Under the pieces are notes generated by a model that was not told the origin of the DNA, did no database searches, and saw only the letters and a program-made list of their open reading frames with translations. Positions 2,794-24,177 of a stretch of 39,910 nt of DNA are shown in pieces (within the stretch, counting starts at the first letter, position 1; every line of letters begins with the position of its first letter). The DNA is from Selenomonadaceae bacterium (GTDB taxonomy: Bacteria > Bacillota > Negativicutes > Selenomonadales > Selenomonadaceae), in assembly GCA_017535925.1 (NCBI GenBank), contig JAFXTD010000023.1:1-39910 (forward strand), given 5' to 3'. A program made the position numbers and the translations under genes.

Positions 2794-3012
2794 GGGGCGT
2801 GTTGGTAAATTAAAAAGCAGCGGTGAGCGAACACCCGGCCGCACATGGACGTGCGGCCGCCGCGACTTAAAACCTGGAAGGTTTTATAGCGGTCAACGCC
2901 CTTTTCTTTTGCTACTTTTCTTTTGGGCGCTGCAAAAGAAAAGTAGATTTAAAAAATAAAAGTCATTACAACGCTCAATCGGAGCTGTCGGTTGAATTTA
3001 TCAAAAGCACCT
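2794..3012 (+). mobile_element. Hairpin-rich miniature element, copy A
   Basis: About 219 bp without a coding region. The left end (2794-2811) and right end (2995-3012) form imperfect terminal inverted repeats related to GGGGCTGTTGGTAAATT. Between them are three stems: 2837-2858 (GGCCGCAC/GTGCGGCC), 2869-2885 (AAAACCT/AGGTTTT) and 2912-2946 (14 bp, CTACTTTTCTTTTG against its complement). Copies B (9835-10050) and C (about 19911-20022) have the same stems with paired base changes. The right end overlaps the stop codon of the minus-strand acyl-CoA ligase gene. The terminal repeats match those of the IS5-type remnant at 9052-9831, so it may be a MITE moved by such a transposase. Confidence 0.75.
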
Positions 3013-4655
3013 AAGCCTTCTGCGAATCGCGGAGGGCTTTAATTTTTTTGAGGGCATCCGTCTTTAAAGAAACCGAATCAATTTTGCCGCTGCCAAGCAG
3101 AGGAAATTTATCGTAAACGAAAAAGCGCGCGGGGATTTTATATTTGGCAATCCTCGCGGAAAGTTCGGCTCGCAAATTATTTTCGTCGAAAGTTTTTCCG
3201 GTTTTCAGCTTGACACAGGCACAAACCTCCTCGCCGAAAAAATCGTGAGGCACGCCGAAAACTTTCACGTCGTCGATAATTTCAAATTCGGAAATCGCCT
3301 CTTCGACTTCTGCGGGATAAATATTTTCTCCGCCGCGAATGATTATCTCCTTGATTCTGCCGGTCAAGTGCAAGTAGCCGTTCGCGTCGAGCTTGCCCAA
3401 GTCGCCCGTGTGCAACCAGCCTTCCGCGTCAATCGTCTGTTCTTCGGGGCGCAATTTGTAATAGCCCGTCATGAGATTGAAACCTTGAACCAAAATTTCT
3501 CCGATACCTTCCGAATCGGGCTTGTCGATTTTGATTCGAATGTTTTTGACGGGCTTGCCGACGGTGTGCAAAATATTTTCGAGGCTGTCGCCGTAAGCGG
3601 TAATGCTGACGGGTGCCGGTTCGCTCAAGCCGTAGCTCGACATAAAGTGATCGTTCGGCATAAGCTTTTGAAAAATTTTTATTTGAGTTTCGGCAGCTCT
3701 TGCGCCGCTGATAATCGAACAACGCAACGAGGAAAATTTTTCCGCGCCGAAATTTTTATTGTTAATCAGAGCGAGGAGCATCGTCGGGACGGAATGAAAA
3801 ATCGTGCAACGTTCCCGCGAAATTAAATTCAAAATAGAATCGGTACGAATTTTTTCGGGAAGGTAAATCGTCGAACCGGCAATCGCATTTGCAAAAATCC
3901 CCGCGACAAGTCCGAAGATATGAAAGAACGGAAGAATCACGCAAGCTTTATCGGAGGCAGCAAGTGTCCGGTCTTTGGAATTAATCTGCGCGGCGTTCAA
4001 AATGTTGTAAGACGAGAGCAAAACGCCCTTGAGCTTGCCGATCGTGCCCGAAGTGAAAATCATGACGGCGGGGTCGTCTTCGCGCACGATTTGCCGAATT
4101 TTATTTATGACAACGGTGCGCGCCTTAAAGTTCACGTCATTGCGAAAGGAATAAAACGTTTGGATTTTGTCTCCGCAAAGATTTTTTATTTCGTCAAGCG
4201 AGGCGGACATTTCTCCGTAACAAAAATGCGTGACGTTTGCATAATCGACAAGCGAGGAAATTTCTTTGGCGCAGAGGTTGAAGTTCACGAGCACGGCACC
4301 GGCTCCGAGCTTTTGAACGGCGTAAAAAGTCAAAATCCGGTTAATCGAGTTCGCGCTGCAAATCGCAACGTGACTGCCTTGCCGAACATTTTTTTTGCAA
4401 GTCGGCGGCGATTATTTCTTTCCAAATGTATTCTTCACCCGCGCTGACGACAAAAATTTTTTCGGCAGAATAAGTTGCTTTGTCTCTCAAAAATTTTTTG
4501 AACGAAACTTGAACATACGGCGAAGATTTTTCCGCGTCAACAAATTCGTTCAGCACGTCTTCGACCTTCGGCGCGGCGGCATTCAAAACATCAAGCCTCC
4601 CCGCGACAAAAATTTTCAACGCGCCGGAATTAAGACGTTCATTTGTTATAGTCAT
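3011..4655 (-). pseudogene. Acyl-CoA synthetase (AMP-forming), split by a frameshift
   Basis: AMP-dependent ligases activate carboxylic acids to acyl-CoA through an acyl-adenylate. The long 3' part (440 residues, start at 4333) has the phosphate-binding loop IFTSGTIGKLKG, the adenylate motif region SSYGLSEP, GWLHTGDLG, and the C-terminal GRIKEIIIRGGENIYPAEVEE with the late GSGKID lysine. The first segment is in another frame (4341-4655, ATG after GAGGAG) and begins MTITNERLNSG...GRLDVLN, which resembles the start of a STAS domain, before joining an acyl-ligase N-terminus (SFKKFLRDKA). The frames meet at eight T on the plus strand (4389-4396). With seven, the protein would read through DLQKN into VRQGSHVAICSANS, exactly as expected for the family. 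It is either inactivated, phase-variable, or a sequencing error; decay of the neighbouring genes favours inactivation. Confidence 0.8.
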
Positions 4656-4692
4656 GATGACTCCTCAAAAAATTTTTTAGTTGGTGATTGAA

Positions 4693-4863
4693 ATGAAGCG
4701 CGAAATTTTAACGGACAAAGAACTCGATATGGTTGCGGGCGGAGGCAAGACGCCGCAAATTCCTTCAGCCGGTGACCGTGAAAAATTTTCTTCGCCCGCG
4801 TGGCTCGACAACATTAAAAGCGAAATGAATCCCGCTATACACAGAATCACGTCGACCTTTTGA
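4693..4863 (+). CDS. Small peptide with a double-glycine leader-like N-terminus
   Basis: A 56-residue ORF begins MKREILTDKELDMVAGGG. The LTDKELDMVAGG stretch matches the general form of double-glycine leaders that ABC peptidase-transporters cleave in class II bacteriocins and NHLP/Nif11-type RiPP precursors. The remaining 38 residues are polar with no cysteine. The start is the ATG at 4693 with a weak GGTG five bases upstream; a TTG at 4681 is also possible. It is divergent from the acyl-CoA ligase, 37 bases away. No peptidase or modification enzyme lies in the window. Caution: the C-terminal part (DNIKSEM) would fit an upstream, frame-disrupted N-terminus of the citrate synthase remnant, so this could be a chance fusion of two decayed pieces. 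Confidence 0.45.
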   Translation: MKREILTDKELDMVAGGGKTPQIPSAGDREKFSSPAWLDNIKSEMNPAIHRITSTF

Positions 4864-5903
4864 AAAGCAACGATTACATCGACCCCGCGCTTTATGAAGA
4901 AAATCATTTCGACAAAATACATCGACGGCAAAAAAAAACTTGCGAGGGTGAACTTTGGTATCGCGGTCACAAAATCAACGGGCTTATCGAAAATCTCGGC
5001 AACGAACTCGGCTTTGAGAAAATCGCTTACCTGCTGATTATGGGCGTGCTCCCCGACGACAACGAGCTTGCCGAATTCAAAAAAGTTTTGGGCTAGGCAC
5101 GGACTTTACCGGCGCACTTTACCCGCGATATTATCATGAAGGCTCCGACCGCTCCGGATACAAGAGTGGGCAATTCCCTGCGTCAATGCCTCGAACTTAT
5201 CGCGACCTTCCCTCTGTTCGCGGCGTATGCTTATCACTCTTACAATCACTACAAAAAGGGCGGCTCAATGTATATTCACATGCCCGACCCGAAACTTTCT
5301 GCAGCGGAAAATCTTTTGAGCCTCTTGCGACCCGACAGACAATACACGCCGCTTGAAGCCAAGGTTTTGGATATGGCACTGATTCTTCACATGGAACACG
5401 GCGGCGCGAATTTGAAATTTATCAGCATGATGGGCGACATTCGCGAGCACGTCAACGATTGGTACGACCGCGACGAGGTTGCCGCTTACGTTCAAAAAAT
5501 CGTCAACAAAGAAGCTTTCGACCACACGGGTTTGGTTTACGGCATGGGGCACGCGGTTTATACGCTCTCCGACCCGCGCGAAAAAATCTTGAAAGAATAT
5601 GTCAAGCAGCTCGTCCGCGAAAAAGGCACCTTCGACGCAGACTTTGCCTTGCATGAAAATATCGAGGCAGTCGTGCCCGAAATTATCGCCAAAGCTCGGA
5701 ACATGCCTCGCCCGCCCGCGCCCAATGTCGACTTCTACAGCGGCGCAGTCTATTACATGCTCGGAGTCCCGCCGTCGTTCTACACCGCGATTTTCGCCAT
5801 TGCCCGAATCGTCGACCGGACTGCTCATCGTTTGGAAGAGTTGTCCACTTCAAATAAAATCATTCGCCCCGCTTACAAGAGCGTCATGAAATTGGAAGGA
5901 TGA
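4818..5903 (+). pseudogene. gltA: Citrate synthase remnant (several lesions)
   Basis: Citrate synthase condenses acetyl-CoA and oxaloacetate. The catalytic landmarks survive: the histidine of HMEHGGAN, the histidine of YGMGHAVYTLSDPR and the aspartate of NVDFYSG, plus a normal C-terminus. The gene is nevertheless broken in several places. A TAG at 5094-5096 stands in frame where the family has glutamate (LG-stop-ARTLPAHFTRDIIMKAP). About 30 residues expected after MKAP are missing. Near 4930 the IDGKK segment is in a different frame from CEGELWYRG, across a run of nine A. The N-terminus before NDYIDPALYEE lacks a convincing start. Fragments of 78 (4860-5096) and 255 residues (5136-5903) remain open. 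The stop codon overlaps the next ATG at 5900. Confidence 0.85.
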
Positions 5904-5992
5904 AAGAATTTACCAAACTTCGCGCGATTTTATTTTTGGCGGGAGGCGCGGCATTCGTCACCAAAACTTTTATCGACCCGAAAACAAAATGA
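5900..5992 (+). CDS. Tiny ORF overlapping the citrate synthase stop, unknown
   Basis: A 30-residue frame (MKEFTKLRAILF then LAGGAAFVTK) starts at an ATG that overlaps the citrate synthase TGA and follows GGAAGG closely. It has one hydrophobic segment and stops at 5990-5992. I do not recognise it. It may be the remaining N-terminus of a small membrane-associated protein that once followed citrate synthase. It lies in a block of decayed genes. Confidence 0.25.
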   Translation: MKEFTKLRAILFLAGGAAFVTKTFIDPKTK

Positions 5993-6035
5993 CCGTCGGC
6001 GTGGCGCAACATGATGAATCGGACGCAGTTGTTCT

Positions 6036-6696
6036 TTGGAAACGCTGATTAATTTAAGTCACGAGGTCATCGGAGTTTTGACGGCAACAAGCGTAAAGAT
6101 TTTTGTTTCGATAGTTGCGGCTTATATGAAGTCGTGGTCGTCGCACAAGCCTTTCGATTATTTTGCGTCGTGTTCAGCGTACCGTTCCTTGCAATGCAAA
6201 TGCTCGACGAAACGGAGGCGGCGGTTGCCCTCGAAAAAGTTGACGAATGGCATTGGCTTGCCTTAATTCCGATTTGTTTTGCGGGACGGTTTATCGGGAA
6301 AAAACTTCACTTGCCGACGAAACATCACGGCATTTTTCTCGACGTTGATTCATCCTCTCGAAGAGGCACCGAAATTTAACATCGGCTTGTATATCGGCAC
6401 ACACCTCGACAAGGAAAGATTAATCGCATTGCGCTCAATGGTATAACGCGGCAATGATAGCGTCCGGCTCACGCATGGCAATTTTCTTGTCGAAGACTTA
6501 CGGTTTCTCGTTGATAACGGCGTTCTTGGCAATGGCACCGGGCGGCATAACGGAAATGTGCGTCGCGGGCTTGGCAATGGGCGCGAACGTCCCGCTGATT
6601 TTGGCTTATCAGCTGTTCAGGTTGCTGACAATAAATTTTGCGTCGCCGTTCGTGATTAATTGGTACTTCAAACGAAATGAGGAGGAAAAAACTTGA
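6036..6696 (+). pseudogene. AbrB-family membrane transporter remnant
   Basis: AbrB-family (PF05145) proteins are multi-span inner-membrane permeases with two related halves. The last 80 residues are open (6454-6696) and carry the family hallmark AMAPGGITEM, followed by a hydrophobic helix and LAYQLFRLL. Upstream, a piece in another frame (6134-6379) contains VVVAQAFRLFCVVFSVPF, which looks like the end of the first half, and a third frame (6036-6130) holds LINLSHEVIGVLTATSVKIF. At least two frame changes and missing segments separate these pieces, so no functional protein can be made. GAGGAGG near its 3' end serves the next remnant, whose ATG overlaps this gene's TGA. Confidence 0.65.
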
Positions 6697-7885
6697 TGGA
6701 AAGTTTAAAAGGCAAAAGACTGTTACTTTTGGGCGGAGACTTCTGGATGGAAGAGCTCGCGCAATACGCAAAAGAAACGGGCGTCAAATTGATTGCCACG
6801 GCTAAGAAAGCTCCGTCGAAACTTTTTGAGATTGCGGAGGAAAGTTACACCGTCGACCCGACGCCGAGGGCATGAAAAAATTAATTCGTGATGCCAAAAT
6901 TGACGCGGTACATCCCGGCTCGGCTGAACCCGTTATCGGCGCGGCAAGTGCTTACCTGCGCGAGGTCGGTTTGCCCTGTTACGCCACGCCCGAACAATGC
7001 GCCGTCCTCCACGAAAAAATTGCCTTCAAAGAACTTTGCGATTCGGTCGGCTTGCCCGTCGTCAAGAGAATTGACGTTGACGAATCCGACCTTGCCAAAA
7101 GTGCCGCCGAAATAAAATATCCCGTCATTGCCAAACCTGTCGACTCGTCCGGCAGCGCGGGATGTTGTGTTTGCAGAAACGCCGAAGAATTTTTGAGCGG
7201 CTACAACGAAGCCAAACAAAATTCTTTCACGGGCAAAGTTATCGTCGAATCTTTCGTCGACAATCGCAGCGTATACCTTTATTACACCTTCAGCGGCGGC
7301 AAACCGTACTTCACGGGTGTGACCAGAAAATATACCGTCAAATATCCGCAAGGCAATTATGTCCTGTCGTTGCGTCTCGGCGAAAGTCCGTTCATTGCCG
7401 ACATTCGCGCACGCTTCGAAGAAAAACTTTTCGCCATGTTCAAGAAGATTGATTTGCGCGAAGGCGTCCTGTGGCTGGAAATTTTCCACGACGGCAAGGG
7501 AACATATTACTTTAACGAGGCGGGTTATCGCTATAACAGCTCGGTCTCGATTTACATGACGAATTTTTTCTACGGCATCAATCAGTTGTATACGGGGCTT
7601 TATTTTGAGCTGACGGGTAAGAGCCAAATCGACGGGCACAAATAACTTCGCGACAACGTCCTGACTGTTTGTGTCGGGCGTCCCGTCGGTTTGAAAATCG
7701 AAGATACCGGCACGTTTAAGCATGTGTTCGCCGTCGTTCAATTCGTGTTTGACACCAAAGAAGAATTCCTTGCCACGCTCGACGACATTCACAAAACGAT
7801 TCACGTCAAAGATACCGACGGCAATGAAATGATCAATCGTATTTTCGATGCCGACAAAGAAACTGCCGATTTCTTCAGTTGTTAG
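6696..7885 (+). pseudogene. ATP-grasp carboxylate-amine ligase remnant
   Basis: ATP-grasp ligases couple carboxylates to amines or thiols using ATP; the substrate here is unknown. The N-terminal piece (ATG 6696, after GAGGAGG) has the Rossmann-like GKRLLLLGGDFWMEEL and ends early at 6873-6875. Two bases out of register, MKKLIRDAKIDAVHPGS continues the same domain through the ATP-binding YPVIAKPVDSSGSAG loop and ends at a TAA (7643-7645). The same frame then reopens with LTVCVGRPVGLKIEDTGTF and a normal family C-terminus (DTDGNEMINRIFD) to 7885. So there is one frameshift and one stop, the latter probably with a short internal deletion. It was probably co-transcribed with the AbrB-like gene. 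Confidence 0.75.
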
Positions 7886-7930
7886 GTGTCAGAATTTTTC
7901 TAACAGCTAACAACTAACAGCTAACAGCTA
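7877..7930 (+). repeat. Heptamer array (TAACAGC unit) with an inverted partner
   Basis: TAACAGC, TAACAAC, TAACAGC, TAACAGC runs from 7901 to 7929. Read on the minus strand the order is unit, unit, variant, unit. AGTTGTTAG at 7878-7886 pairs with CTAACAACT-like sequence in the array, so a hairpin is possible between the convergent ATP-grasp remnant and ispG. Confidence 0.85.
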
Positions 7931-7954
7931 AAAAATGAGGAGGCTTGAAAAAAT

Positions 7955-9019
7955 TTATTCCGCCTCCAAAATTTTATCAAGCTCTTTGAAAAGTTCGGTG
8001 ACAAGTTCGGCTTCGGGCACCTTGCGAACGATAACGCCCTTGCGAAAAATAATTCCTTCGCCGTCGGCACCTGCAATTCCGATATCGGCAGTGCGAGCCT
8101 CGCCGGGTCCGTTGACGACGCAACCCATAACCGCAACCGTCAAATTTTTTTCAATGGAAGAAATTTTTTCCTCGACCTGCGCGGCGATAGCGGGAAGATT
8201 AATTTTCGTTCGCCCGCAAGTCGGACAAGCAATCAAAGTTACACCGCCTTCACGAAGACCGAGCGATTTTAAAATTTCTTTGGCGACTTTGACTTCGACG
8301 CAAGGGTCACCCGTCAATGAAACGCGAATGGTATCGCCGATACCTTCAGCCAACAACGCGCCGATACCGACCGCCGATTTTATGACGCCGCTTTTGACTG
8401 TACCCGCCTCCGTTATGCCCAGATGGAGCGGGTAATTTTTTTTCGCGCTCATCAATCGGTAAGCCGCCAAAGTCAACGGCACGTCGTGAGCCTTCAACGA
8501 AATTTTTATGTCGAAAAAATTTTCCGCCTCCAAAATTTTTACATGTTCCAAAGCAGATTCGACCAATGCTTCGGGAGTCGCGCCGCCGTATTTTTGCAGA
8601 AGCTTTCGACTTAACGAACCCGCATTGACTCCAATACGAATCGGGATTTTCGCCGCCCGCGCAGATTTTACGACTTCGCGAACGTGAGCCGCGCCTCCGA
8701 TGTTTCCGGGATTCAATCGCAGAGCCGCCACGCCTTGAGCAATCGATTCAAGCGCAAGTTTATAATCGAAATGAATATCCGCGATAATCGGAACCTCGAC
8801 CGCCGAAATTATTTTGCCTAAAGTTTTGGCAGCCGTCATGTCGGGCACGGCAACTCTTACAATGTCGCAACCTTGAGCCGCAAGATTTTGAATTTGTTCA
8901 ATCGTCGCCGGCGCGTCTTGCGTTTTGGTGTTCGTCATAGATTGAATGCTTATCGGCGCGCCGCCTCCGATTTTTATTTTCCCGACGCTGATTTGTCTCG
9001 TCTGTTTCCGTTCAAACAT
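7955..9019 (-). CDS. ispG: 4-hydroxy-3-methylbut-2-enyl diphosphate synthase (IspG)
   Basis: IspG (GcpE) converts methylerythritol cyclodiphosphate to HMBPP in the MEP isoprenoid pathway using a [4Fe-4S] cluster. The 354-residue protein is full length for the short bacterial form: TIM-barrel domain with ISIQSMTNTKTQD and DIVRVAVPD, RIGVNAGS, then the C-terminal iron-sulfur domain with IACPTCGRTK and MGCVVNGPGEA, giving the three cluster cysteines and the conserved glutamate. The ATG follows a GGAGGAG site. It is intact and transcribed toward the decayed block, and an IS remnant begins 33 bases upstream of its start codon, so its promoter may lie in or beside that element. Confidence 0.96.
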   Translation of the reverse strand: MFERKQTRQISVGKIKIGGGAPISIQSMTNTKTQDAPATIEQIQNLAAQGCDIVRVAVPDMTAAKTLGKIISAVEVPIIADIHFDYKLALESIAQGVAALRLNPGNIGGAAHVREVVKSARAAKIPIRIGVNAGSLSRKLLQKYGGATPEALVESALEHVKILEAENFFDIKISLKAHDVPLTLAAYRLMSAKKNYPLHLGITEAGTVKSGVIKSAVGIGALLAEGIGDTIRVSLTGDPCVEVKVAKEILKSLGLREGGVTLIACPTCGRTKINLPAIAAQVEEKISSIEKNLTVAVMGCVVNGPGEARTADIGIAGADGEGIIFRKGVIVRKVPEAELVTELFKELDKILEAE

Positions 9020-9051
9020 TTGCTCTCCTCCAAAAATAATATCAACCGATT

Positions 9052-9831
9052 GGGGCTGTTGGTAAACTCAAGTAAAAGAAAAACACAAGCAATGATAAAA
9101 TGAATTTGAAAGTAGGTCATTACTTATGTCAAATTCATTTTACCACAAAGATTTAACGGACGCTCAATGAACGTCTTCAATGCCATCATGTGGATTCTCA
9201 AAAGTGGAGCGCGTTGGCGCGATTTACCCGCCCGTTACGGTAATTGGAACAGTATTTATCACAAGTTCCGAAAATGGTGCGCTGATAATGTTTTCGAGAA
9301 CCTCTTGCAAGCGTTGGCAGACGACACGGAAAAATATCTGCTCGTCCAAATTGATTCAACCTTCTGCAAGGTGCATCAGCACGCCGCCGGGACTCTCAAA
9401 AAACACGGTAATCAAGCAATAGGCGTGTCACGCGGCGGCAAGACCACCAAAATTCATGATCTTGTCACAGAAAATTTTCAACTTATCGGGCTGTTACTGA
9501 CCGGCGGACATATTCATGATTCAAAGTGTGCCGTTGAATAAAACTCAAAAACAAAAAGGTTCCGGGTGATAAAGCTTTTTGTTCGTCTCATATTCAGGAT
9601 TTTATCCAAGAGCAAGGCGGTATTGTTTGTATTCCGGACAAAAACAACTCGCGAGCAAAACATGATTTTGATAAAGAGCTTTACAAAGCTCGCAACGTCG
9701 TTGAACGTTTTTTCTTGCGGCTAAAGAATTGCCGACATATCGCCACCCGTTATGACAAATTGGCTCTTTGCTTTCGCAATTTTATTTTGCTTGCTACCCT
9801 TATGCTTCAAGTCTAGACTTTACCAACACTC
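9052..9831 (+). mobile_element. Degenerate IS5-type insertion sequence
   Basis: The left terminus reads GGCTGTTGGTAAACTC (9054 onward). The right terminus, read in reverse, is GAGTGTTGGTAAAGTCT (9815-9831), giving imperfect terminal inverted repeats. The interior holds one broken DDE transposase. A miniature element with the same termini begins only a few bases to the right at 9835. I could not define a target-site duplication. Confidence 0.75.
9126..9816 (+). pseudogene. IS5-family transposase, disrupted
   Basis: The frame at 9126 (MSNSFYHKDLTDAQ) matches the usual N-terminus of IS5-type transposases but hits TGA where a tryptophan is expected, and the following text NVFNAIMWILKSGARWRDLP is in another frame, so roughly the usual 25-30 linking residues are missing. 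The central part (9167-9541) has the first catalytic aspartate in VQIDSTF and the second in GGHIHDS. It stops at 9539-9541. The third acidic residue is in a different frame (9538-9816): KAFCSSHIQDFI, then RNVVERFFLRLKNCRHIATRYDK. Frame 1 has a TGA at 9535-9537, immediately before the join, so simple programmed -1 slippage looks unlikely and small deletions are more likely. Probably inactive in cis. Confidence 0.8.
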
Positions 9832-9834
9832 TCT

Positions 9835-10050
9835 AGGGGCTGTTGGTAAATTAAATCGACGGCTCCGATTGAGCGTTTCAATGACTTTTGTTTATTGAAT
9901 CTACTTTTTCTTTGTCGGCGTCAAAGAAAAAGTAGCAAAAAGAAAGACGCTTAAACCGGCGGATGAACATCCTGTTCATATCGCCGGCGGCCGTCATCCG
10001 TGACGGCCGGGCACTCGCCAACCGCTGCTTTCAATTTACCAACAACCCCT
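9835..10050 (-). mobile_element. Hairpin-rich miniature element, copy B
   Basis: This is copy A inverted. The terminal repeats AGGGGCTGTTGGTAAATT (9835-9852) and its near-perfect complement (10033-10050) match at 17 of 18 positions. The same three stems are present in reverse order: 9901-9935 (CTACTTTTTCTTTG with its complement), 9963-9979 (ATGAACA/TGTTCAT) and 9989-10008 (GGCCGTCA/TGACGGCC). Stem sequences differ from copy A but stay paired. It abuts the IS5-type remnant. No ORF of interest lies inside. Confidence 0.8.
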
Positions 10051-10060
10051 AATTAAACAT

Positions 10061-10083
10061 TCCCAATTTCCAATTCCAAATTG
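10061..10083 (+). repeat. Heptamer array (TCCCAAT/TTCCAAT type)
   Basis: About three 7-base units (TCCCAAT, TTCCAAT, TCCAAAT) follow the right end of miniature element B and precede the promoter of the next gene. Confidence 0.65.
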
Positions 10084-10114
10084 AAAAAAATCCCTGCCGC
10101 AAATTTTTTCTGTG

Positions 10115-10123
10115 TGATATAAT
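10115..10123 (+). promoter_or_regulatory. Extended -10 promoter
   Basis: TGATATAAT is a perfect extended -10 element 20 bases before the ATG at 10143. No good -35 hexamer is seen, which is usual for extended -10 promoters. It would drive the DUF3298-like gene and the small peptide gene. Confidence 0.6.
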
Positions 10124-10142
10124 CTGCGCGGAGGTGATTTTT

Positions 10143-10775: not shown

Positions 10776-10787
10776 GAGGTTGACAAC

Positions 10788-10973: not shown

Positions 10974-10974
10974 T

Positions 10975-12366: not shown

Positions 12367-12395
12367 GCGTCAACCTCCTTTGCATTACAGAAATT

Positions 12396-13357
12396 TTACA
12401 AAGTGTTCAAATCCTGTTCGAGGACGCCGATTTGATGATTCAAATCCTTGGCGGCGCGGCTTTTAAGTTGCCAATCCTCGTAAAGCCGAAAATCAATCAG
12501 AAACTCTTTAAACATGTTTAAGTTAAACTTAATCGTGTCGGAGTGAACTTCGGAAAAAATTTCGTTCAAAAATTTTTCGGCGCAAGTGACTTCGGCAATG
12601 TATTTGTCGAGGCAAGCGTTTTTTTCTTGCGGAGGAAGCGCGTTGAATTTTTTCGCGACTTCATGAACTTTCAAGACCGTTTGCTTGATTTGAGCCTTCT
12701 TGTCGTCCGTCTGACCTTGCGGAGAACGTCGGCGAAGTTCTGATTTAAATGTCGGGGAAAGTTCCAATTCGACGACCGAAAAATTTTGTTCCAAGTCAAA
12801 AGTTTGTGCGGCGTTCGTCCAAAAATCGGGAAGCGAGAATTTCGGCGCAGCGAAGAAAACTTTTCCGTAATCTTTTGGCGCAAGCAAAACTTCAATCGGC
12901 GGGAGCGTTTGCTCTGAAAAAATCACCGAACCGAATTTGTTTTCCGGAATGATATACCCCCCCCGTTTACCTCAGCAAAGATAAAATTGACGCTTGAAAA
13001 TTTTCCGACGGGACGAACGGGCGCGTAGTACCAGAGAAAATTTTTTGCATTGAACTTCGGCAGGGTGAATGCAAGAGTATCGTCGAGCGGCGACCACTGT
13101 CCGAAATGCAGGACGTCATGTTTTTGCGGCTTGCGCATGAGTTCGGCGACGAGCCGCAGATAAATTATAGAGTTCAGCGCACCGCCTGCCGTTTTGTCGA
13201 AGAGCTTATGCAAATTGCTGTTCACTTCGTTGACGAGATTAATTTGTAACATGTCGCTTTGATTCGCTGCAATGTTCCCGAATTCGACGAGACTGCGCGG
13301 TTGATTGGAGACGTCGTGAAGAATGATTTCGCCGTTGTTGAAAGTAAAGTAGCTCAT
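12396..13357 (-). CDS. Unknown protein, frame split by a G8 tract (possible phase-variable gene)
   Basis: Two frames belong together. The first (start 13357) encodes 144 residues beginning MSYFTFNNGEIILHD and runs to FAEVNGGG before leaving frame. The second, down to 12396, would continue YIIPENKFGSVIFSEQ and carries about 180 more residues ending in a helical, charged region. They meet at eight G (plus-strand C at 12957-12964). Six or nine G would give one protein of about 320 residues; eight gives early termination. I do not recognise the family. The start overlaps the end of the glycosyltransferase gene by four bases (ATGA type), so the two are translationally coupled. Poly-G tracts in coding regions of surface-modification genes are classic contingency switches in other bacteria. 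A sequencing error in the homopolymer is the main alternative. Confidence 0.65.
12957..12964 (-). repeat. Poly-G homopolymer tract (G8 on the coding strand)
   Basis: Eight consecutive C on the plus strand, read as GGGGGGGG in the gene. It is the longest G or C run I noticed in the window and lies exactly where the reading frame changes. Confidence 0.85.
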
Positions 13358-14478
13358 TGCGTTTCGCCTCCGTAAAGCAGATAGTACAGCCTCGCGACGA
13401 TGTGTTCGGCGTCAAAATTTCGGCGGGCATATTCGACGGCATTTTTTCCGCCCACAAGGATCAAATCGTTATCAAGGCAGACTTTGCGGAAAATATTTGC
13501 AAGCGCGTCGACGTTGCCAATCGGAAAAACTCTGCCGCATTTGTTGTCGTCTGTTGCCTCGTAAGCCGCGTCTATTGACGAAAAAATCATGAAGTCACCC
13601 GCGAAGAGAGCTTCTGCCGTGACATTTGGTGTGCCGCCCTCGAAAGTCGACGTCAGGCAAAAAATTTTTGCACGCTTGTACTCTTCGGCAAGAGCGGCTT
13701 TGTCTTCAATCAGTCCGGTAAATGTCACACGTTCGCGCAGGTCGGGATATCTGGAAAAATAATTTTCAATCCACGGATTAAATGTTTCATGTACTTCGCC
13801 AACAAGTCGAATGCTCCAATCGGGCAAATCGTCAGCAACTTTGGCGAATGCCTCAAGCAAATCTTGATTGCGCTTTTGGTCAGTGCCGAGCCGCCCGACA
13901 GTCAAAATAATATTTTCCTTTTGCGCGAAAAGGTTGTTGAAAGAAATTTGCGAGAAGTTATACCAGCCGTTGCGAATCAGCTCGATAGGTACGCCCCACT
14001 TCGCCGAAAGATATTTTTGCACGGCACGACAACTCGCCGCCACCACATCGCAGGATTGAATAAATTTTTTGTAATCGGAATTATTGTGCGGGAAATTGCT
14101 TGCCCAGCCGCTGTTCATGTCCGTTGCAAGATAAATTTTGCCGTCCGGGCGAACTCGTTTGTAATATTCAATGCATGGAAAATATTCCTGATAGGGACCG
14201 TAAAGAATAAACAAATCCATTTCGGCGGCGTGCGCGTTAATGTATTCAATCCGCCCCTTCAGCGAATCTTCCGGCAAGAAATCCATTTCAAGCCCGCGAA
14301 CATACTTCTCAAGGTAAGGAAATGTTTCATGCTCATTTACTGCGCCAACCATTACCGAACGGAAGCCGTGATTTTTGTAAAGCAGATAGGGAATAATGCC
14401 GCAGTCCTTCGTAAGTTGTTGATTGCCCCAAGAACCGAGCGGATGTATCGAAAATGCGCCGCGTTTGTCGTTTTGCAT
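13354..14478 (-). CDS. GT4-type glycosyltransferase
   Basis: The protein of about 374 residues has the retaining GT-B layout. The C-terminal half carries ILTVGRLGTDQKRNQDLLEAF, then TFTGLIEDKAALAEEY and FCLTSTFEGGTPNVTAEAL, the usual donor-binding E(x)7E-type region of family 4 enzymes, which transfer sugars from nucleotide-sugar donors. I prefer the ATG at 14478 (MQNDKRG), eight bases after GAGG; GTG/ATG codons at 14487 and 14484 sit too close to that site. It lies between ubiD and the poly-G gene on the same strand and overlaps the latter by four bases. With flagellin two genes upstream, modification of flagellin or another surface glycan is plausible but not shown. Confidence 0.85.
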   Translation of the reverse strand: MQNDKRGAFSIHPLGSWGNQQLTKDCGIIPYLLYKNHGFRSVMVGAVNEHETFPYLEKYVRGLEMDFLPEDSLKGRIEYINAHAAEMDLFILYGPYQEYFPCIEYYKRVRPDGKIYLATDMNSGWASNFPHNNSDYKKFIQSCDVVAASCRAVQKYLSAKWGVPIELIRNGWYNFSQISFNNLFAQKENIILTVGRLGTDQKRNQDLLEAFAKVADDLPDWSIRLVGEVHETFNPWIENYFSRYPDLRERVTFTGLIEDKAALAEEYKRAKIFCLTSTFEGGTPNVTAEALFAGDFMIFSSIDAAYEATDDNKCGRVFPIGNVDALANIFRKVCLDNDLILVGGKNAVEYARRNFDAEHIVARLYYLLYGGETQ

Positions 14479-14500
14479 AAGCATCACCTCAAAAAAATTT

Positions 14501-15958
14501 TCAATCCAACTCCAATGAACTCCAAATGTTATCGACGCGGGCTTTGACTTCGGAAGTCATTTCGATTTCGTCAGGCCATTCGCGTGCGTGACCTTCTTCC
14601 GCCCAAGTTTTTGTTGCGTCAATGCCGAGCTTCGCGCCCCATTTTGCATACGGCGAGGAATGGTCGAGCACGTCAAGCGGTCCGTGAACAATTTCCAAAT
14701 CGTGTTCGGCGTCAATGTTGTTAAAGACGCGCCACGCCACCTCGCTCAAGTCTTGAACATTTACATGCGAATCGACGACGATAATCATCTTGACGTTCAT
14801 CATTTGCCCGAGCCCCCAAAGCGCGTGCATGACTTTCCTCGCGTGCATGGGGAATTGTTTTTTTATCGAGACGATAACGCAATCGTGAAAGACACCTTCG
14901 AGCGGCATGTTGATATCGATAATTTCGGGCAAGAGTTGTTGCAGGAGCGGCAGGAAAATTCTTTCGGTCGCCTTCGCCATGTAGCAATCTTCCATCGGCG
15001 GCTTGCCCACGACGGTCGCGAAGTAAATCGGATTTTTGCGGTGAGTAATGCAAGTGACGTGAAAGACGGGATAATCGTCCGCCAAAGAATAATAGCCGGT
15101 GTGGTCGCCGAAAGGTCCTTCGCGGCGGAGTTCGTCGGTCGAGACGTAGCCTTCCAAAATAATTTCTGCAGTCGCGGGAACTTCCAAATCGACGGTTTTG
15201 CATTTTGTCAGCTCAACGGATTTTTTCCTCAAGAAGCCCGCGAAAACCATTTCGTCCACGTCACGCGGCAGAGGAGCGGTCGCGGCATAAGTTACGACGG
15301 GGTCTGTGCCGATAGCAACAGCCGCCTCGATTTTGTTTGAGCCGAGAGTTTTTGCGTCACGAAAATTTTCTGCGCCGTTCTTATGAATGTGCCAATGCAT
15401 GCCCGTCGTCCGAGCGTCATATTTCTGCAAACGATACATGCCGACGTTGCGCTTGCCGGTCGCGGGATTTTTCGTGAAGACAAGCGGCAACGTTATGAAA
15501 GCTCCGCCGTCTTTCGGCCAGCATTTTAAAATCGGAATTTTATCTAGCGAGGGATTGACTTCGACGACTTCTTGACACGGCGCGTTCTTGACGTATTTTG
15601 GAAAATTAATTGCCTTGTGCGCAGTCGAGACGATTGAAAAAATATTTGAGCGGTTCTTGAAGGAAAGATAAGGCAACTTCATAATTTCGCGAATATCATC
15701 CGCCGCGTCGTCCAATTTCTCAACGCCCAATGCCAAAGCCATGCGCTCGTAACTTCCGAAGGCGTTCATCAAAACGGGCATATCGTAGCCGCGAACATTT
15801 TCAAACAGCAAGGCGACGTTGCGGCTGTCTTTGAACTTGGAAACGCGGTCGGTTATTTCGGTTATCTCAAGCTCGGCGTCGACGGGAATTTTTATTCGCT
15901 TGAGCAAATTTTTTTTCTCCAACACTTCAATGAATTCGCGCAAATCTTTATAAGCCAA
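14501..15958 (-). CDS. ubiD: UbiD-family decarboxylase
   Basis: UbiD-family enzymes use prenylated FMN to decarboxylate (or carboxylate) aromatic and alpha,beta-unsaturated acids. The 485-residue protein is full length: LAYKDLREFIEVLEKK at the N-terminus, NVGMYRLQKYD and GMHWHIHKNG in the prFMN-binding region, and DELRREGPFGDHTGYY with the catalytic glutamates. The start is the TTG at 15958, seven bases after GGAG; the longer frame to 16051 would overlap flagellin. Only 13 bases separate it from the flagellin stop, so it is probably co-transcribed, an odd pairing. No UbiX prenyltransferase gene is in the window. The substrate is unknown. Confidence 0.92.
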   Translation of the reverse strand: MAYKDLREFIEVLEKKNLLKRIKIPVDAELEITEITDRVSKFKDSRNVALLFENVRGYDMPVLMNAFGSYERMALALGVEKLDDAADDIREIMKLPYLSFKNRSNIFSIVSTAHKAINFPKYVKNAPCQEVVEVNPSLDKIPILKCWPKDGGAFITLPLVFTKNPATGKRNVGMYRLQKYDARTTGMHWHIHKNGAENFRDAKTLGSNKIEAAVAIGTDPVVTYAATAPLPRDVDEMVFAGFLRKKSVELTKCKTVDLEVPATAEIILEGYVSTDELRREGPFGDHTGYYSLADDYPVFHVTCITHRKNPIYFATVVGKPPMEDCYMAKATERIFLPLLQQLLPEIIDINMPLEGVFHDCVIVSIKKQFPMHARKVMHALWGLGQMMNVKMIIVVDSHVNVQDLSEVAWRVFNNIDAEHDLEIVHGPLDVLDHSSPYAKWGAKLGIDATKTWAEEGHAREWPDEIEMTSEVKARVDNIWSSLELD

Positions 15959-15971
15959 AGCTTCATCTCCT

Positions 15972-17615
15972 TTATTGCAATAAGTTGAGTATCGCGCTTG
16001 AATTTTGATTCGCCTGTGCAAGCATTGACTGCGCGGCTTGAGCCAAAACATTTGCTTTTGTGTAAGAGGTCATTTCCTTAGCCATATCGGCGTCGCGGAT
16101 TGTCGATTCGGAGGCTTGAACGTTTTCGCCCATTGTCGTCACGTTGATATCCGTAAATTCTAGCCGCTGAAGATATGCGCCCATGCGAGTGGCTTGGTCG
16201 AGAGCATATTCAAGCGCGCCGTCAAGCACGTGAATTGCAATGTTTGCATTTTCCTTCGTCGTGACGGAAATATCATCAATGGTTTTATTTTCCGCCGCCT
16301 TGAGAGTTGCAAGCCACTCCGCCTGCTTGGCAGTGTTGTCATTCAATGCATTGTAGCGGGCAATATCGCTTTCGTTTATGAGCCTGCCGCCGTTGAAAAG
16401 TTGTCCCGCGCCGAGAGATTTTGTCTGCATGTCCTCTATATAAAAATTGCTGTGTTGCCCTGCCTGCGTGCCGTGCTGAATCCACAGCGGACCGGTTTTT
16501 CTTTTATTAAACTCTTCCAATTCTTCCAAATCGGGATTTTTAATAATGCCGTTTCTGAATTGCATGGCATTACTATCCTTTGTGAACAAAATTTTTGAAG
16601 AATCGTTTGGGTCGCGCCTGATTCGGAGGTTATGAGCCGCGTTGACCAAAATATCATCAGAGGTATTGGTGTGAGTGGCTGTCTTGGTTCCCATCAAAGT
16701 GGAGTTAAAACTTTTTTCGATACTGCTGCTGACAGCCGAAATGCCTTGAAAGAGTACTTCAGCCAAATCTTCGGAGGATTTTACATCTTTGACGCCGATA
16801 ATAAATTCGCGAGCCATATCATTAACCGTGCCGTTCGCCGAACTATTTGCCGTTTTGTTGTAAGTTGATTGTGCCGCAGTTTTGTTGGCATTAAAAAGAA
16901 TGTTTATGTATTGAGGACAGCCGCCGCATAAAATAGAAAAACCTTGATTGTGCAAGGCTTCGGGATAAGTACCGCCCTCCGCAATCATTGCGGAAAAATC
17001 CAATTCTACCGAAAATGCTCCGGTAGTGGAATTGATAAAGCTTTTGTCCACTGCAAATTTCCAGTTGGCGGGGTCGTCTGTAGTGCCGCTGTAGCTGTAA
17101 AGTGAACCTTTTTGTTCCACCGAATTATAAGAAGCTTTGAAAGCATTGACAACATCTTTGATTTCGGCTGTACTAAAAACAGGCTTGGCGTATCTGCCGT
17201 CGAGAAGAATTTTTCCGTTATACTGCGTGCCGATAGCGATATCGTCAATCGTCTCCCGAAGTTTATTGAATTCTTTTTGAATGGTTTGGCGATCTTCGTC
17301 GGTGTTGGAGTCGTTGGCGGCGTTGATTGCCTTTTCCTTCATCGTGCGCATGTTTTGAATAATCTGGTCAATGCCGCGTTCGGCAGTTCTGATTATTGAC
17401 GAGCCGTTTTGAACGTTTTGATTGTCTTGTGTGAGGGCACGAAGTTGCACGCGCATTCTTTCGGAAATGGAATAGCCCGAAGCGTCGTCGGCTGCAGAAT
17501 TTATTTTCATCCCGCTTGAAACTTTTGCCAGAGCTTTGGCGGCTTCGTTATTGTTTTGGTTGAGTTCAATCAACGAAAACCGAGCCCCCGCATTGTACAT
17601 GACCGTCATAGCCAT
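15972..17615 (-). CDS. Flagellin
   Basis: Flagellin is the filament subunit exported by the flagellar type III apparatus. The conserved N-terminal D0/D1 region is clear (NNNEAAKALAKVSSGMKIN, then SAADDASGYSISERMR and TAERGIDQIIQNM) and so is the C-terminal helix (ADMAKEMTSYTKANVLAQAA ... NSSAILNLLQ). Between them are about 300 variable surface residues. The product is about 547 residues from the ATG at 17615, which follows GGAGGTG; the six-base-longer ORF start is less likely. It lies 33 bases after tatC and just before ubiD on the same strand. No sigma-28-like promoter is evident in the short gap, so it may be read from a promoter inside or upstream of tatC. Confidence 0.95.
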   Translation of the reverse strand: MAMTVMYNAGARFSLIELNQNNNEAAKALAKVSSGMKINSAADDASGYSISERMRVQLRALTQDNQNVQNGSSIIRTAERGIDQIIQNMRTMKEKAINAANDSNTDEDRQTIQKEFNKLRETIDDIAIGTQYNGKILLDGRYAKPVFSTAEIKDVVNAFKASYNSVEQKGSLYSYSGTTDDPANWKFAVDKSFINSTTGAFSVELDFSAMIAEGGTYPEALHNQGFSILCGGCPQYINILFNANKTAAQSTYNKTANSSANGTVNDMAREFIIGVKDVKSSEDLAEVLFQGISAVSSSIEKSFNSTLMGTKTATHTNTSDDILVNAAHNLRIRRDPNDSSKILFTKDSNAMQFRNGIIKNPDLEELEEFNKRKTGPLWIQHGTQAGQHSNFYIEDMQTKSLGAGQLFNGGRLINESDIARYNALNDNTAKQAEWLATLKAAENKTIDDISVTTKENANIAIHVLDGALEYALDQATRMGAYLQRLEFTDINVTTMGENVQASESTIRDADMAKEMTSYTKANVLAQAAQSMLAQANQNSSAILNLLQ

Positions 17616-17648
17616 AAAAAACACCTCCATGTAAAAGAAAAAAACTTC

Positions 17649-18404
17649 CTAACGTCGCAAAATATATTTCACGACGAGATAGCCGACTTCATACAGCAAA
17701 ACGACGGGGATTGCCACGGCGATTTGAGTTATAACGTCGGGCGAAGTGACCAACGCTCCTATCACGAACGAAAAGAAAAATACGTAGCGGCGATACTTTC
17801 CCAATTTTTCACTCGTCAAAATTCCCAGCTTGCCCAAGACGATTATCACGAGCGGCAACTCAAAGACAAACCCGAACGGCAACACGAACAGTATCACGAA
17901 TTCGAAGTAGCTGCCGAACGAAAACAACGTTTGAAGATTTTCCGATTCTTGACCGAAGCCCATAAAAAATTTCAGCGCGAAAGGCAATATCAAAAAAAAC
18001 GAAAACGCCAGCCCTGCGAAGAACAACACGACCGACGAGGGCACAAGTATTCCCAAAGCGGCGCGTTCGCTCCTTGTCAGCGCGGGCAAAAAAAATCTCC
18101 ATGCGTGATAAAAAATTATCGGCAAGGCAATCAAAAAGCCCGCCGCGATATCGATTTTGAGATACGTGAAAAACGCCTCGCCCGGTTTCATGTAGTAGAG
18201 CTTGCCGACGGGCAACGTCAGCAGATTTGTTATCTCGTCGAGAAAAAGATACGCGACGCAACTTCCGAACGCGACAGCCAACAGCGATTTTATGAGGCGT
18301 GAGCGAAGTTCCTCAAGGTGCGCCGTCAAACTCATGGTACCGTCGTCTTCGGCGGGAACTTCGTCTTGCTCAACCTGCGCGGAATTTTTTTCTTGCTCTG
18401 TCAT
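17649..18404 (-). CDS. tatC: Sec-independent translocase subunit TatC
   Basis: TatC is the multi-span receptor that recognises twin-arginine signal peptides. The 251-residue protein has a charged N-terminal tail of about 25 residues, then the diagnostic MSLTAHLEELRSRLIKSL, six membrane segments, FFTYLKIDIAAGF, and FELPLVIIVLGKLGI with the conserved C-terminal ALVTSPDVITQ. The start overlaps the stop of tatA, so they are translationally coupled. Confidence 0.95.
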   Translation of the reverse strand: MTEQEKNSAQVEQDEVPAEDDGTMSLTAHLEELRSRLIKSLLAVAFGSCVAYLFLDEITNLLTLPVGKLYYMKPGEAFFTYLKIDIAAGFLIALPIIFYHAWRFFLPALTRSERAALGILVPSSVVLFFAGLAFSFFLILPFALKFFMGFGQESENLQTLFSFGSYFEFVILFVLPFGFVFELPLVIIVLGKLGILTSEKLGKYRRYVFFFSFVIGALVTSPDVITQIAVAIPVVLLYEVGYLVVKYILRR

Positions 18405-18595
18405 TTCTTATCGGAATCAATCTTCGCGGCTTCAAGTTTCTTTTGCTCGGTCTTATCGTCTTCGGAATTTGCCTGCTTAAATTCTTTGATACTCTGCCCC
18501 AAAGCTTTGCCGACGCCCGGCAATTTTCCCGGTCCGAAGACAACCAAGCCGATAATCAAAATCAAAATGAGTTCGGGAACGCCTATTCCAAACAT
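18401..18595 (-). CDS. tatA: Sec-independent translocase subunit TatA
   Basis: TatA forms the pore-like oligomer of the Tat system. The 64-residue protein has the short N-terminal GIGVPELILILIIGLVVFGP membrane helix with the FGP hinge, LPGVGKALGQSIKEFK amphipathic helix and a charged tail. I use the ATG at 18595, eight bases after GGAGAG; a GTG three codons earlier overlaps that site. A good sigma-70 promoter lies just upstream. Confidence 0.93.
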   Translation of the reverse strand: MFGIGVPELILILIIGLVVFGPGKLPGVGKALGQSIKEFKQANSEDDKTEQKKLEAAKIDSDKK

Positions 18596-18623
18596 TTTAA
18601 TCACTCTCCAAAAATTTTTCGTG

Positions 18624-18652
18624 ATTATATCATAAGTTTTTCTGCGTGTCGA
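18624..18652 (-). promoter_or_regulatory. Sigma-70-type promoter for tatA-tatC
   Basis: On the minus strand: TCGACA, 17-base spacer, TATAAT with an upstream TG (extended -10). The -10 lies about 28 bases before the tatA ATG. It may also feed flagellin and the genes after it. Confidence 0.7.
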
Positions 18653-18660
18653 AAAAATTT

Positions 18661-18716
18661 TAGCTGATAGCTGTTAGCTGTTAGCTTTTTAATTCCTCAT
18701 TCTTAATTCCTAATTG
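18661..18716 (+). repeat. Two adjacent heptamer arrays (TAGCTGT and ATTCCTA types)
   Basis: TAGCTGA, TAGCTGT, TAGCTGT, TAGC at 18661-18685, then ATTCCTC, ATTCTTA, ATTCCTA, ATT at about 18692-18714. The second is the complement of the array found in purL at 32086-32120. They fill the divergent gap between tatA and the metallohydrolase gene. Confidence 0.85.
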
Positions 18717-18782
18717 TTTCTGCGTGTGAATCACTTTCCACTTGTCTTTTTTTTTGTTATCATTATGGCGGAGGTGATAAAG

Positions 18783-19889
18783 TTGCGGAGCGGAAAAATA
18801 ATTTTCATGCCGCTTGGCGGAGCGCAGGAAGTCGGGGCAAGTTGTTATTTCCTCAAGCTCGGCGAAAATAATTTGTTGCTTGATTGCGGTTGCGGCTCGA
18901 CACACGGAATACGTTTCGCACCGAAATTTAATGCACTCTTGCAGACGCCTTACCTCCAAGATTTTCATCAAGTGTCGCAAATATTTTTGTCGCACGCGCA
19001 CCTCGACCACGCCGCAGCCTTGCCGGATTTTTTGGAACTCAACGAACGCGCCGCCGTTTACATGACCGATCTGACACGAGAAATTTTATCGGTGCAGTTG
19101 GAGGAGCGTTTCGACAAGATTGAAAAAAATATTTCGTCGGTTGCCTTCCTGCAAAAAATTCCTCTGCCGAATCTGCGAATCAGTTTCCATCAAGCGGGGC
19201 ACATCCCCGGCGCAATGATGACGCTGATAAATTTTCGCGGGAAAAATATTTTGTACACGGGCGACTATTCGACTTTCCCGACGCAACTTGTCGGCGCGGC
19301 TCTGCTTCCCGAAGTGAAGATTGATATTTTAATTCTTTGCGGACTTCACGCGAGGCACCCGAATTATCGACGCTTTGGCGACAGCGATTCTGCTTTGAAA
19401 AAAATTCTTCGTAAAATTTATTATGCGTTGCGTCGAGGCAAATCGGTTTATTGTCAAGTCACGCAAATCAGCAAGGGCGTCGAACTTATCACGCTGATAA
19501 ATAAATTTTTGCCGCAAGCCGAAATTTTTATCGACGAGCGCGTCATGAAAATCGTCCACCGTTTTGAAAATCTTCATATCCCGATAATGCGAGAACAAAA
19601 TCATCCGTTGAGTGCCTTCCCGCGAGCTCCTTGCGTATTTTTATCGACGAAGCCTCCGCCGCCGCGTTCGGGCATGGAAATTTTAAACGGCGATTTTTCT
19701 TTGCATGACGACTTCGCCGCGACGGTTGAATTTGTTCGCCGACTCAATCCGAAAACTTGCGTCGTCGTTCACAGCCCGCCCGATAAATTTTTTCACACGG
19801 GCACGACCCTCGAACAAGTTTTAATCAACGACCCCGACTCAAGGACGAGTTTCATTTTTCCAAATACTTGTGTACCTTTTGAACTTTGA
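18783..19889 (+). CDS. Metallo-beta-lactamase/beta-CASP-like hydrolase, atypical
   Basis: The 368-residue protein resembles the CPSF-type MBL plus beta-CASP nucleases that process RNA. It has PLGGAQEVGASCYFL, the metal motif HAHLDHAAALP, HIPGAMM and YTGDYS. Near the C-terminus DFSLHDDFAATVEFVRRLNP followed by CVVVHSPPDKFF matches beta-CASP motifs B and C. The usual motif A (ESTYG, with an acidic residue) is replaced by ILCGLHARHP, so activity or substrate may differ. I prefer the TTG at 18783, six bases after GGAGGTG; the ATG at 18765 lacks a ribosome site. It stands alone and is followed by a hairpin element that begins close to its stop. Confidence 0.75.
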   Translation: MRSGKIIFMPLGGAQEVGASCYFLKLGENNLLLDCGCGSTHGIRFAPKFNALLQTPYLQDFHQVSQIFLSHAHLDHAAALPDFLELNERAAVYMTDLTREILSVQLEERFDKIEKNISSVAFLQKIPLPNLRISFHQAGHIPGAMMTLINFRGKNILYTGDYSTFPTQLVGAALLPEVKIDILILCGLHARHPNYRRFGDSDSALKKILRKIYYALRRGKSVYCQVTQISKGVELITLINKFLPQAEIFIDERVMKIVHRFENLHIPIMREQNHPLSAFPRAPCVFLSTKPPPPRSGMEILNGDFSLHDDFAATVEFVRRLNPKTCVVVHSPPDKFFHTGTTLEQVLINDPDSRTSFIFPNTCVPFEL

Positions 19890-20075
19890 AAAATTTTTTA
19901 AAGAGTCTCAACCCGGCCGTCACGGATGACGGCCGCCGCGACTTAAAACCTGGAAGGTTTTATAGCGGTCAACGCCCTTTTCTTTTGCTACTTTTCTTTT
20001 GGGCGCAGCAAAAGAAAAGTAGAATAAACCCCTTTTGAGCTTTGAAAAATTTTTTTAAGAGTCTCAACCCGACCG
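19876..20075 (+). mobile_element. Hairpin-rich element, copy C, between 44-bp direct repeats
   Basis: The core (about 19911-20022) has the same three stems as copies A and B: 19915-19934 (GGCCGTCA/TGACGGCC), 19945-19961 (AAAACCT/AGGTTTT) and 19988-20022 (14 bp). The core is nearly identical to copy A but lacks the GGGGCTGTTGGTAAATT termini. It is instead flanked by 44-base direct repeats at 19876-19919 and 20032-20075, which match at 41 of 44 positions. The left repeat begins inside the end of the metallohydrolase gene and the core's first stem starts within it. Confidence 0.75.
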
Positions 20076-24093: not shown

Positions 24094-24177
24094 TTCAATT
24101 GGGAATTGGGAATGGGGAATTGGGAATTATTTTTTCTAACCACTAACCACTAATCACTAATCACTAAATTAGGAATT
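24094..24177 (+). repeat. Two adjacent heptamer arrays (AATTGGG and CTAACCA/CTAATCA)
   Basis: AATTGGG, AATTGGG, AATGGGG, AATTGGG, AATTA at about 24098-24129 (unit, unit, variant, unit), then CTAACCA twice and CTAATCA twice at about 24136-24166. Together they fill the gap between the Hsp70-like and TauE-like genes; the start of the latter follows with only a weak ribosome site (AGGAATTGAA). Confidence 0.85.

Follow-up and report, generated by a model that had tools for sequence, protein, structure and literature searches.

A short repeat dispersed through the genome of a Selenomonadaceae bacterium (assembly GCA_017535925.1) is present in three copies, A, B and C, in a 39,910-nt stretch of contig JAFXTD010000023.1, the whole of which is referred to here as the window. 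On balance, we lean towards reading this element as a mobile CsrA-binding RNA module, that is, a miniature inverted-repeat transposable element (MITE) whose core would fold into two hairpins with GGA loops followed by a triple-helix pseudoknot. The structure is strongly supported by sequence comparison; expression, CsrA binding and function are inferred.

On the core strand the order of parts is hairpin 1, hairpin 2, sometimes an insert with a GCGA-type hairpin, and the pseudoknot. An earlier note on this DNA had described three stems per copy. Two of these stand as hairpins, and the third is half of a pseudoknot, its loop pairing upstream with CGCCC in copies A and C and with GCGTC in copy B; a plain third hairpin was therefore dropped. 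The stem of hairpin 3 is called S2, the pairing of its loop with the bases just 5' of a pyrimidine tract is called S1, and the tract itself, which lies between the two S1 strands, is called L1. The three copies and their quoted stems are present in the sequence as the note had them, with the extents set to 2795-3011, 9836-10049 and 19912-20023. Their parts are as follows.

Copy A, whole element: 2795-3011, + strand; left inverted end GGGCGTGTTGGTAAATT, right end decayed.
Copy A, hairpin 1: 2836-2859, + strand; GGCCGCAC-ATGGAC-GTGCGGCC, loop with GGA.
Copy A, hairpin 2: 2860-2892, + strand; CCGC..TAAAACCT-GGA-AGGTTTTA..GCGG.
Copy A, S1 5' strand: 2897-2901, + strand; CGCCC, partner GGGCG/GGCG at 2925-2929 in the hairpin 3 loop.
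Copy A, L1: 2902-2911, + strand; TTTTCTTTTG, predicted third strand.
Copy A, S2: 2912-2946, + strand; CTACTTTTCTTTTG / CAAAAGAAAAGTAG, shape 4C4.
Copy B, whole element: 9836-10049, - strand; intact 214-nt mini-transposon with both inverted ends and TA on either side.
Copy B, core: 9900-10011, reading on the - strand.
Copy B, hairpin 1: 9988-10009, - strand; CGGCCGTCA-CGGA-TGACGGCCG.
Copy B, hairpin 2: 9956-9987, - strand; CCGGCG..ATGAACA-GGA-TGTTCAT..CGCCGG, loop context ACAGGAUGU.
Copy B, S1 5' strand: 9946-9950, - strand; GCGTC, partner GACGC/ACGC at 9918-9921 in the hairpin 3 loop.
Copy B, L1: 9936-9945, - strand; TTTCTTTTTG, a parallel (Hoogsteen), not Watson-Crick, match of AAAGAAAAA in S2.
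Copy B, S2: 9901-9935, - strand; CTACTTTTTCTTTG / CAAAGAAAAAGTAG, shape 5C3.
Copy C, core only: 19912-20023, + strand; no recognisable inverted ends.
Copy C, L1: 19978-19987, + strand; TTTTCTTTTG, adjoining S2 at 19988-20022.

The pairs seen in S1 include CGCCC/GGGCG, GCGTC/GACGC, GCACC/GGTGC, TCGCC/GGCGA, TTGCC/GGCAA, GTGGCC/GGCCAC and others. An S1 of at least three base pairs was found in 160 of 181 contexts, whereas 500 random re-pairings of the loops gave 71 on average and never more than 87. In alignment A2, which holds copies from other genomes, 82.4% of S1 cells and 99.5% of S2 cells are paired, and double-sided changes occur at all four S1 pairs.

With the S2 5' strand written as T(a)CT(b) and its purine strand as A(b)GA(a), a parallel Hoogsteen third strand would have to be T(b)CT(a), a mirror image of that 5' strand, and a Watson-Crick competitor would be T(a)CT(b). 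Contigs of other genomes were scanned for asymmetric S2 stems of shape 5C3 with L1 left free, which yielded at least 107 stretches and makes 5C3 over-represented by design. A count by strand had dropped 114 readings, mostly opposite strands of kept hairpins, and the tally was therefore made by hairpin. Over all loci fetched it gave 263 distinct hairpins; the tail of L1 equals the head of S2 in 238 and does not in 3, with 18 unreadable L1s and 4 at an edge, so that L1 tracks S2 in 238 of 241 readable hairpins. Among the 193 readable hairpins with an asymmetric S2, 190 track, 187 fit a whole third strand and none is a direct copy, for which reason L1 as an alternative Watson-Crick partner was dropped. 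Under stricter de-duplication 179 of 181 track, 16 of 197 contexts being without a readable L1. A second scan, for shape 4C3 (15 genomes, eight with matches) gave 25 fitting L1s out of 27 readable, 7 of 35 being unreadable.

Tallied by genome, with a de-duplication of its own (174 of 177 tracking), 13 of 34 groups (33 genomes and one viral contig) carry two or more S2 shapes, each tracked by its L1. The 13 comprise seven Selenomonadales including the present genome, Haemophilus haemolyticus, Lonepinella, a record labelled Pseudomonas stutzeri, Thalassocella and two Oscillospiraceae. In one Quinella copy (L142), S2 contains two Cs and so does L1. Since several shapes occur per genome and each is tracked, the pattern is not one inherited event.

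The tracking of S2 by L1 predicts a U.A-U / C+.G-C major-groove triple helix. The geometry suggests an H-type pseudoknot with L1 in the deep groove of S2, and such a pseudoknot with a triple helix is very probably what the core forms. In telomerase RNA the pseudoknot loop lies in the deep groove of S2, and an H-type topology with a loop along the S2 stem is common to telomerase, ENE, guanidine-III and SAM-V RNAs. The present pseudoknot differs from these in its eight to nine predicted triples, its occurrence in dispersed bacterial repeats and its lack of a ligand context. No curated Rfam match for the pseudoknot was found in the sources searched. A second S2 3' strand (AAAAGAAAAGTAG or similar, after GAAGAGACTTG or similar) was observed 3' of the pseudoknot in L039, L087, L222, L064 and L098.

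Selection for structure, as the earlier note had proposed, is strongly supported by larger alignments from this genome and from other species. The three window copies do not carry that argument by themselves, as had been thought, because their paired changes are not independent: copy C combines hairpin 1 of the B type with hairpin 2 and pseudoknot of the A type. The genome-wide and cross-species sets do count as independent evidence. Collecting further copies, building covariance model R1 from 48 cores and testing covariation, a check which the note had suggested, gave double-sided changes far above shuffles. The own-genome alignment A3 comprises 65 matches (59 sources), of which 62 rows are distinct. 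Paired cells make up 93.6% of it, and it shows 228 double-sided changes, against a shuffle mean of 66, at most 60 in slid controls, and none of 500 shuffles as high. In A2 (101 matches from 83 of 107 scanned loci, 99 distinct rows), 93.0% of cells are paired and there are 577 double-sided changes, against a shuffle mean of 154 and at most 139 in slid controls; in both counts one event is counted many times among related rows. Within this evidence, the double-sided changes and the slid controls weigh more. The own-genome scoring set was the window plus L240-L297, with L298-L313 left out; A2 omits nearly all loci from outside the Selenomonadales as well as L111 and L113, and from alignment A1, L066 was left out and four duplicates and one core were dropped.

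Hairpin stems differ from copy to copy, and GGA is mostly retained in the loop. At least one GGA loop is present in 67 of 69 own-genome contexts and 78 of 109 others (none in 2 of 69 and 31 of 109), and two or more GGA-loop hairpins in 50 of 69 and 28 of 109, respectively. There are 38 distinct GGA-loop hairpins in the own genome and 79 elsewhere, GGA being the commonest loop triplet in both sets.

The scores of copies A, B and C with R1, in whose building set all three stand, are 106.6, 120.9 and 115.5 bits. Their RNA-fold z-scores are -5.5, -6.0 and -5.2, and for each core none of 200 dinucleotide shuffles was as stable; the folding used was nested only, the pseudoknot being outside its reach. 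A window scan for tRNA and curated Rfam families called none, and tRNA, tmRNA or a curated Rfam family as the identity of the element was dropped for want of such a match. An intrinsic terminator was also dropped, the T run being absent after S2 in all three copies. A direct duplication of 45 nt (93% identity; ends CCCGGCCG / CCCGACCG) lies on either side of copy C, at 19875-19919 and 20031-20075, and may be a trace of how this end-less core came in.

The genome searched consists of 2.59 Mb in 76 contigs. With 150 of 2029 candidates scored, R1 gave at least 138 matches at E<=0.01 and at least 100 at E<1e-6; the weaker ones take in true copies read on the reverse strand, and the 100 include some incomplete cores where a contig ends. 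In earlier searches of this genome, 40 of 170 and 40 of 222 candidates had been scored. The complete element is about 215 nt long with inverted ends of about 17 nt. Its end motif TGTTGGTAAATT, with up to one mismatch allowed, was found 116 times on one strand and 114 on the other, compared with 5 and 2 for the reversed pattern. TA flanks both sides of 36 of 42 distinct end-paired elements, counting those that are readable. At least 6 of these 42 are without a core; the loci had been fetched mainly for cores, so this is not a genome-wide rate, and the six, read by eye, are a minimum, the automatic pseudoknot label having missed 5C3 elements and passed some partial cores. Conversely, when one mismatch or fewer is allowed, no end motif lies within about 130 nt of 36 of the 82 cores located. 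Over the 48 own-genome cores only 12 combinations of module variants were found, which shows that modules recombine.

Runs of the TAACCACTAA / TTAGCTGTTAG type were seen in both orientations at 256-285, 7895-7924, 18662-18690, 24094-24160 and 27686-27752, and runs of this type also fill several of the core-less end-paired elements. Many end-less cores (L202, L207, L218, L264, L284, L298 and L303) have in common a 3' tail with GTTCTGCGTGCCCACTCTTTGGCAAAGACGGG, which by comparison of these copies appears to be a further repeat joined to the core.

Next to copy B lies a candidate relative of the mobilising transposase:

IS4/5-type insertion sequence (IS): 9052-9833, + strand; inverted ends GGGGCTGTTGGTAAACT / TTTACCAACACTCTC, related to those of the element; transposase frame broken.

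Two bases separate it from copy B, its open piece has a PF13340 match (E=2.5e-16), and TGTTGGTAAA is common to its ends and those of the mini-transposon. A search of the own genome gave one other long match and 12 left-end matches, with no intact copy seen. At least 10 of the 12 left-end matches lie no more than 240 nt from the end of a contig, as would happen where intact copies collapse or break the assembly. The element resembles mini-transposons of the IS5 group in being short and non-coding, in having ends related to an IS4/5 element and in its TA target; it differs in that it has a conserved RNA core under structural selection, which is also found without recognisable ends.

The two GGA hairpins probably bind CsrA. 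The loop context ACARGGAUGU matches the CsrA consensus, and the genome has one CsrA gene (PF02599, E=2.2e-24) whose product is close in sequence to solved Csr/Rsm proteins (PDB chain group 2jpp/2mf0, E=1.6e-12). Like the CsrB and RsmX-Y-Z sponge RNAs, the core has several GGA-loop hairpins and would be expected to bind CsrA; unlike them, it occurs in about 100 dispersed copies, carries a triple-helix pseudoknot on its 3' side and has no promoter found in the copies scanned. Its rsmX score is 13.7 bits against a cut-off of 56.

The nearest Rfam family is TwoAYGGAY (RF01731, clan CL00106), which likewise has two adjacent hairpins with AYGGAY-like loops; unlike the present element, the Rfam model as aligned here has no triple-helix pseudoknot. 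TwoAYGGAY RNAs are proposed to bind CsrA, and RNAs of this type are predicted in Clostridia, Bacillales and Lactobacillales (PMC4333381). None of the own-genome matches exceeds the cut-off of 43 (best 36.1 bits; five matches at E<=1, all of them on element copies), and the element is therefore a relative in kind and not a TwoAYGGAY member. Sub-threshold Rfam matches include both TwoAYGGAY and rsmX, the latter also of clan CL00106.

The pattern was found in Bacillota (Negativicutes, Clostridia), Pseudomonadota (Pasteurellaceae, Cellvibrionales) and Bacteroidota, and a viral scan gave one contig. Within the order, R1 matches at E<=1e-6 were obtained in 53 of 151 genomes and 4 of 30 genera; with 24 candidates scored per genome, this survey speaks of presence only and not of copy number. 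The pseudoknot is a separable module, preceded by other domains in other lineages. In Thalassocella it follows a closed domain with two GGA hairpins, which scores 39.3 bits with TwoAYGGAY in L349 and 43.8 bits, above the cut-off, in L362. Eight loci of Thalassocella match TwoAYGGAY, and the pseudoknot just downstream is intact in four, interrupted in three (L362 included) and at a contig edge in one. Among all 13 TwoAYGGAY-matching loci, seven have an intact pseudoknot downstream, L362, L369 and L373 an interrupted one, L363 and L365 pieces, and L371 a contig edge. In 20 other genomes, TwoAYGGAY matches at E<=0.01 were obtained in five and over the cut-off in one, namely Thalassocella. An insertion starting ACTAAGC/ACCAAGT was observed after the S2 5' strand in L373 (about 1500-1700) and also in L369 and L362.

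The domain ahead of the pseudoknot is a long hairpin that has no GGA loops in Pasteurellaceae and a short hairpin in the Oscillospiraceae copies, most of which lack S1. The long upstream hairpin of the Pasteurellaceae loci L100, L121, L155, L325, L332, L353 and L354 has a conserved top near TGTNTGAGCGNAGCGAGTT; an Rfam search of L353 at E<=2 gave no match. Loci L181 and L326, on CABDVE010000001.1 (titled Pseudomonas stutzeri NCTC11607), carry Pasteurellaceae-like versions of the repeat, and the label of that record may be wrong.

Turning to the genomic context, the 82 located copies overlap called genes by 60 nt at most, the calls coming from a simple gene caller that missed at least one gene (18714-19889). 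Copy A lies 3' of a methionyl-tRNA synthetase gene on the same strand, and a terminator-like site is found 3' of it at 3013-3039, where shuffles give 0.9 on average, hence no excess. Elsewhere in the window, tandem units of 27 nt at 39194-39428, inside a - strand reading frame (38952-39896), resemble calcium-binding nonapeptide repeats.

The mechanism that we favour can be put as follows. A MITE would carry a structured RNA, and transposition would disperse its core. The core would work as RNA once transcribed, mostly by read-through, given that the copies scanned showed no promoter-like site of their own. The two hairpins with GGA loops would then bind the CsrA of the genome, the pseudoknot triple helix would form a stable 3'-side domain shielding the transcript from 3' exonucleases, and the module, spread by transposition, would serve as a binding site or decoy for CsrA.

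Several findings pull the other way. S1 is missing in 21 of 181 contexts, 11 of which are from Oscillospiraceae/Clostridia or the viral contig. L1 does not track S2 in L096, L175 and L326, and 4 of the 18 unreadable L1s (L138, L321, L324 and L346) are core-strand L1s with substitutions; in several others the tract is lost or was never there, or the wrong strand was picked. Because A2 and A3 had been fitted to the model, both alignments favour it. A sizeable share of hairpin 2 loops have GUGA instead of GGA, and those Pasteurellaceae, Bacteroidota and Oscillospiraceae copies that were read have no GGA hairpins upstream. CsrA is present in 51 of 53 genomes with the core and in 85 of 98 without it, and is thus non-discriminating. 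Unrelated families (microRNAs, Flavo-1) reach comparable E-values among the sub-threshold Rfam matches. A simple consensus scan of the three window copies revealed no sigma-70-like promoter in copies A and B, and the promoter-like site near copy C lies downstream of it. Lastly, the copies are randomly oriented with respect to the upstream gene (of the 82, 39 share its direction, 41 oppose it and 2 are without a call), so that about half of the copies are antisense to that gene; the element as part of the upstream gene's mRNA in every case was accordingly dropped.

Random orientation, together with the inverted ends, the TA sites and the many copies, would also be expected of a selfish MITE whose internal structure serves transposition as hairpin DNA or an H-DNA triplex and has no RNA role, and the pyrimidine mirror repeat is a requirement of H-DNA as well. 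The earlier note had left the choice between RNA and transposition hairpin DNA open. RNA is the better reading because the GGA loops, the hairpins and the polarity of the pseudoknot lie on one strand in a fixed order, and H-DNA needs neither a covarying S1 nor GGA-loop hairpins so arranged on the pyrimidine strand. A need for hairpin DNA in transposition is unsupported, given the end-paired elements without a core and the cores without a recognisable end described above, and a purely selfish MITE is judged unlikely. A structured RNA bound by another protein, such as a nuclease or a mobile-element protein with GGA as its loop motif, would account for the GUGA loops of some hairpin 2 variants and for the pseudoknot in lineages whose copies are without GGA hairpins; it is judged improbable in view of the fit of ACARGGAUGU to the CsrA consensus, the matches to Rfam families of the Csr/Rsm clan, most of them below cut-off, and the presence of CsrA in the genome.

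Absence of selection, in which template switching would keep restoring the palindromes and transposition would have multiplied a few source variants, is very improbable: it has in its favour that just 12 module combinations make up 48 cores and that single copies show uncompensated changes (hairpin 1 of L072, for example), but template switching copies by Watson-Crick pairing and should not make mirror repeats, so that it leaves the third strand in step with S2 unexplained, nor would it hold GGA loops while stems are rewritten, and the pattern recurs in three phyla. The earlier note had named uncompensated stem changes and a few recent duplications as what would speak against it. The former are seen in single copies, and the window copies did arise by recombination among amplified variants; when variants or species are compared with one another, the changes prove to be compensated.

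The favoured reading remains a mobile CsrA-binding RNA with a triple-helix pseudoknot. Mini-transposons, GGA hairpins and triple-helix pseudoknots are known kinds; what is new is their combination, the three-strand covariation and the spread over three phyla, and no description of the element was found in literature searches of open papers. RNA triple helices have usually been found via a solved structure. Here one is predicted from sequence alone, with a third strand that changes with its duplex in 13 multi-shape genomes. If this is true, it would add an RNA family without a curated Rfam match in the sources searched, TwoAYGGAY-like RNAs would gain a downstream partner, and mini-transposons would disperse CsrA-binding RNA in Negativicutes. 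More tentatively, a triple-helix module may have spread in three phyla within dispersed repeats and, in Selenomonadaceae and Quinella, transposition may multiply and move copies joined to CsrA-binding hairpins, so that a mobile, evolvable RNA would set CsrA titration or the CsrA regulon, the triple helix possibly doing in bacteria what stability elements do in telomerase RNA and in viral or transposon RNAs.

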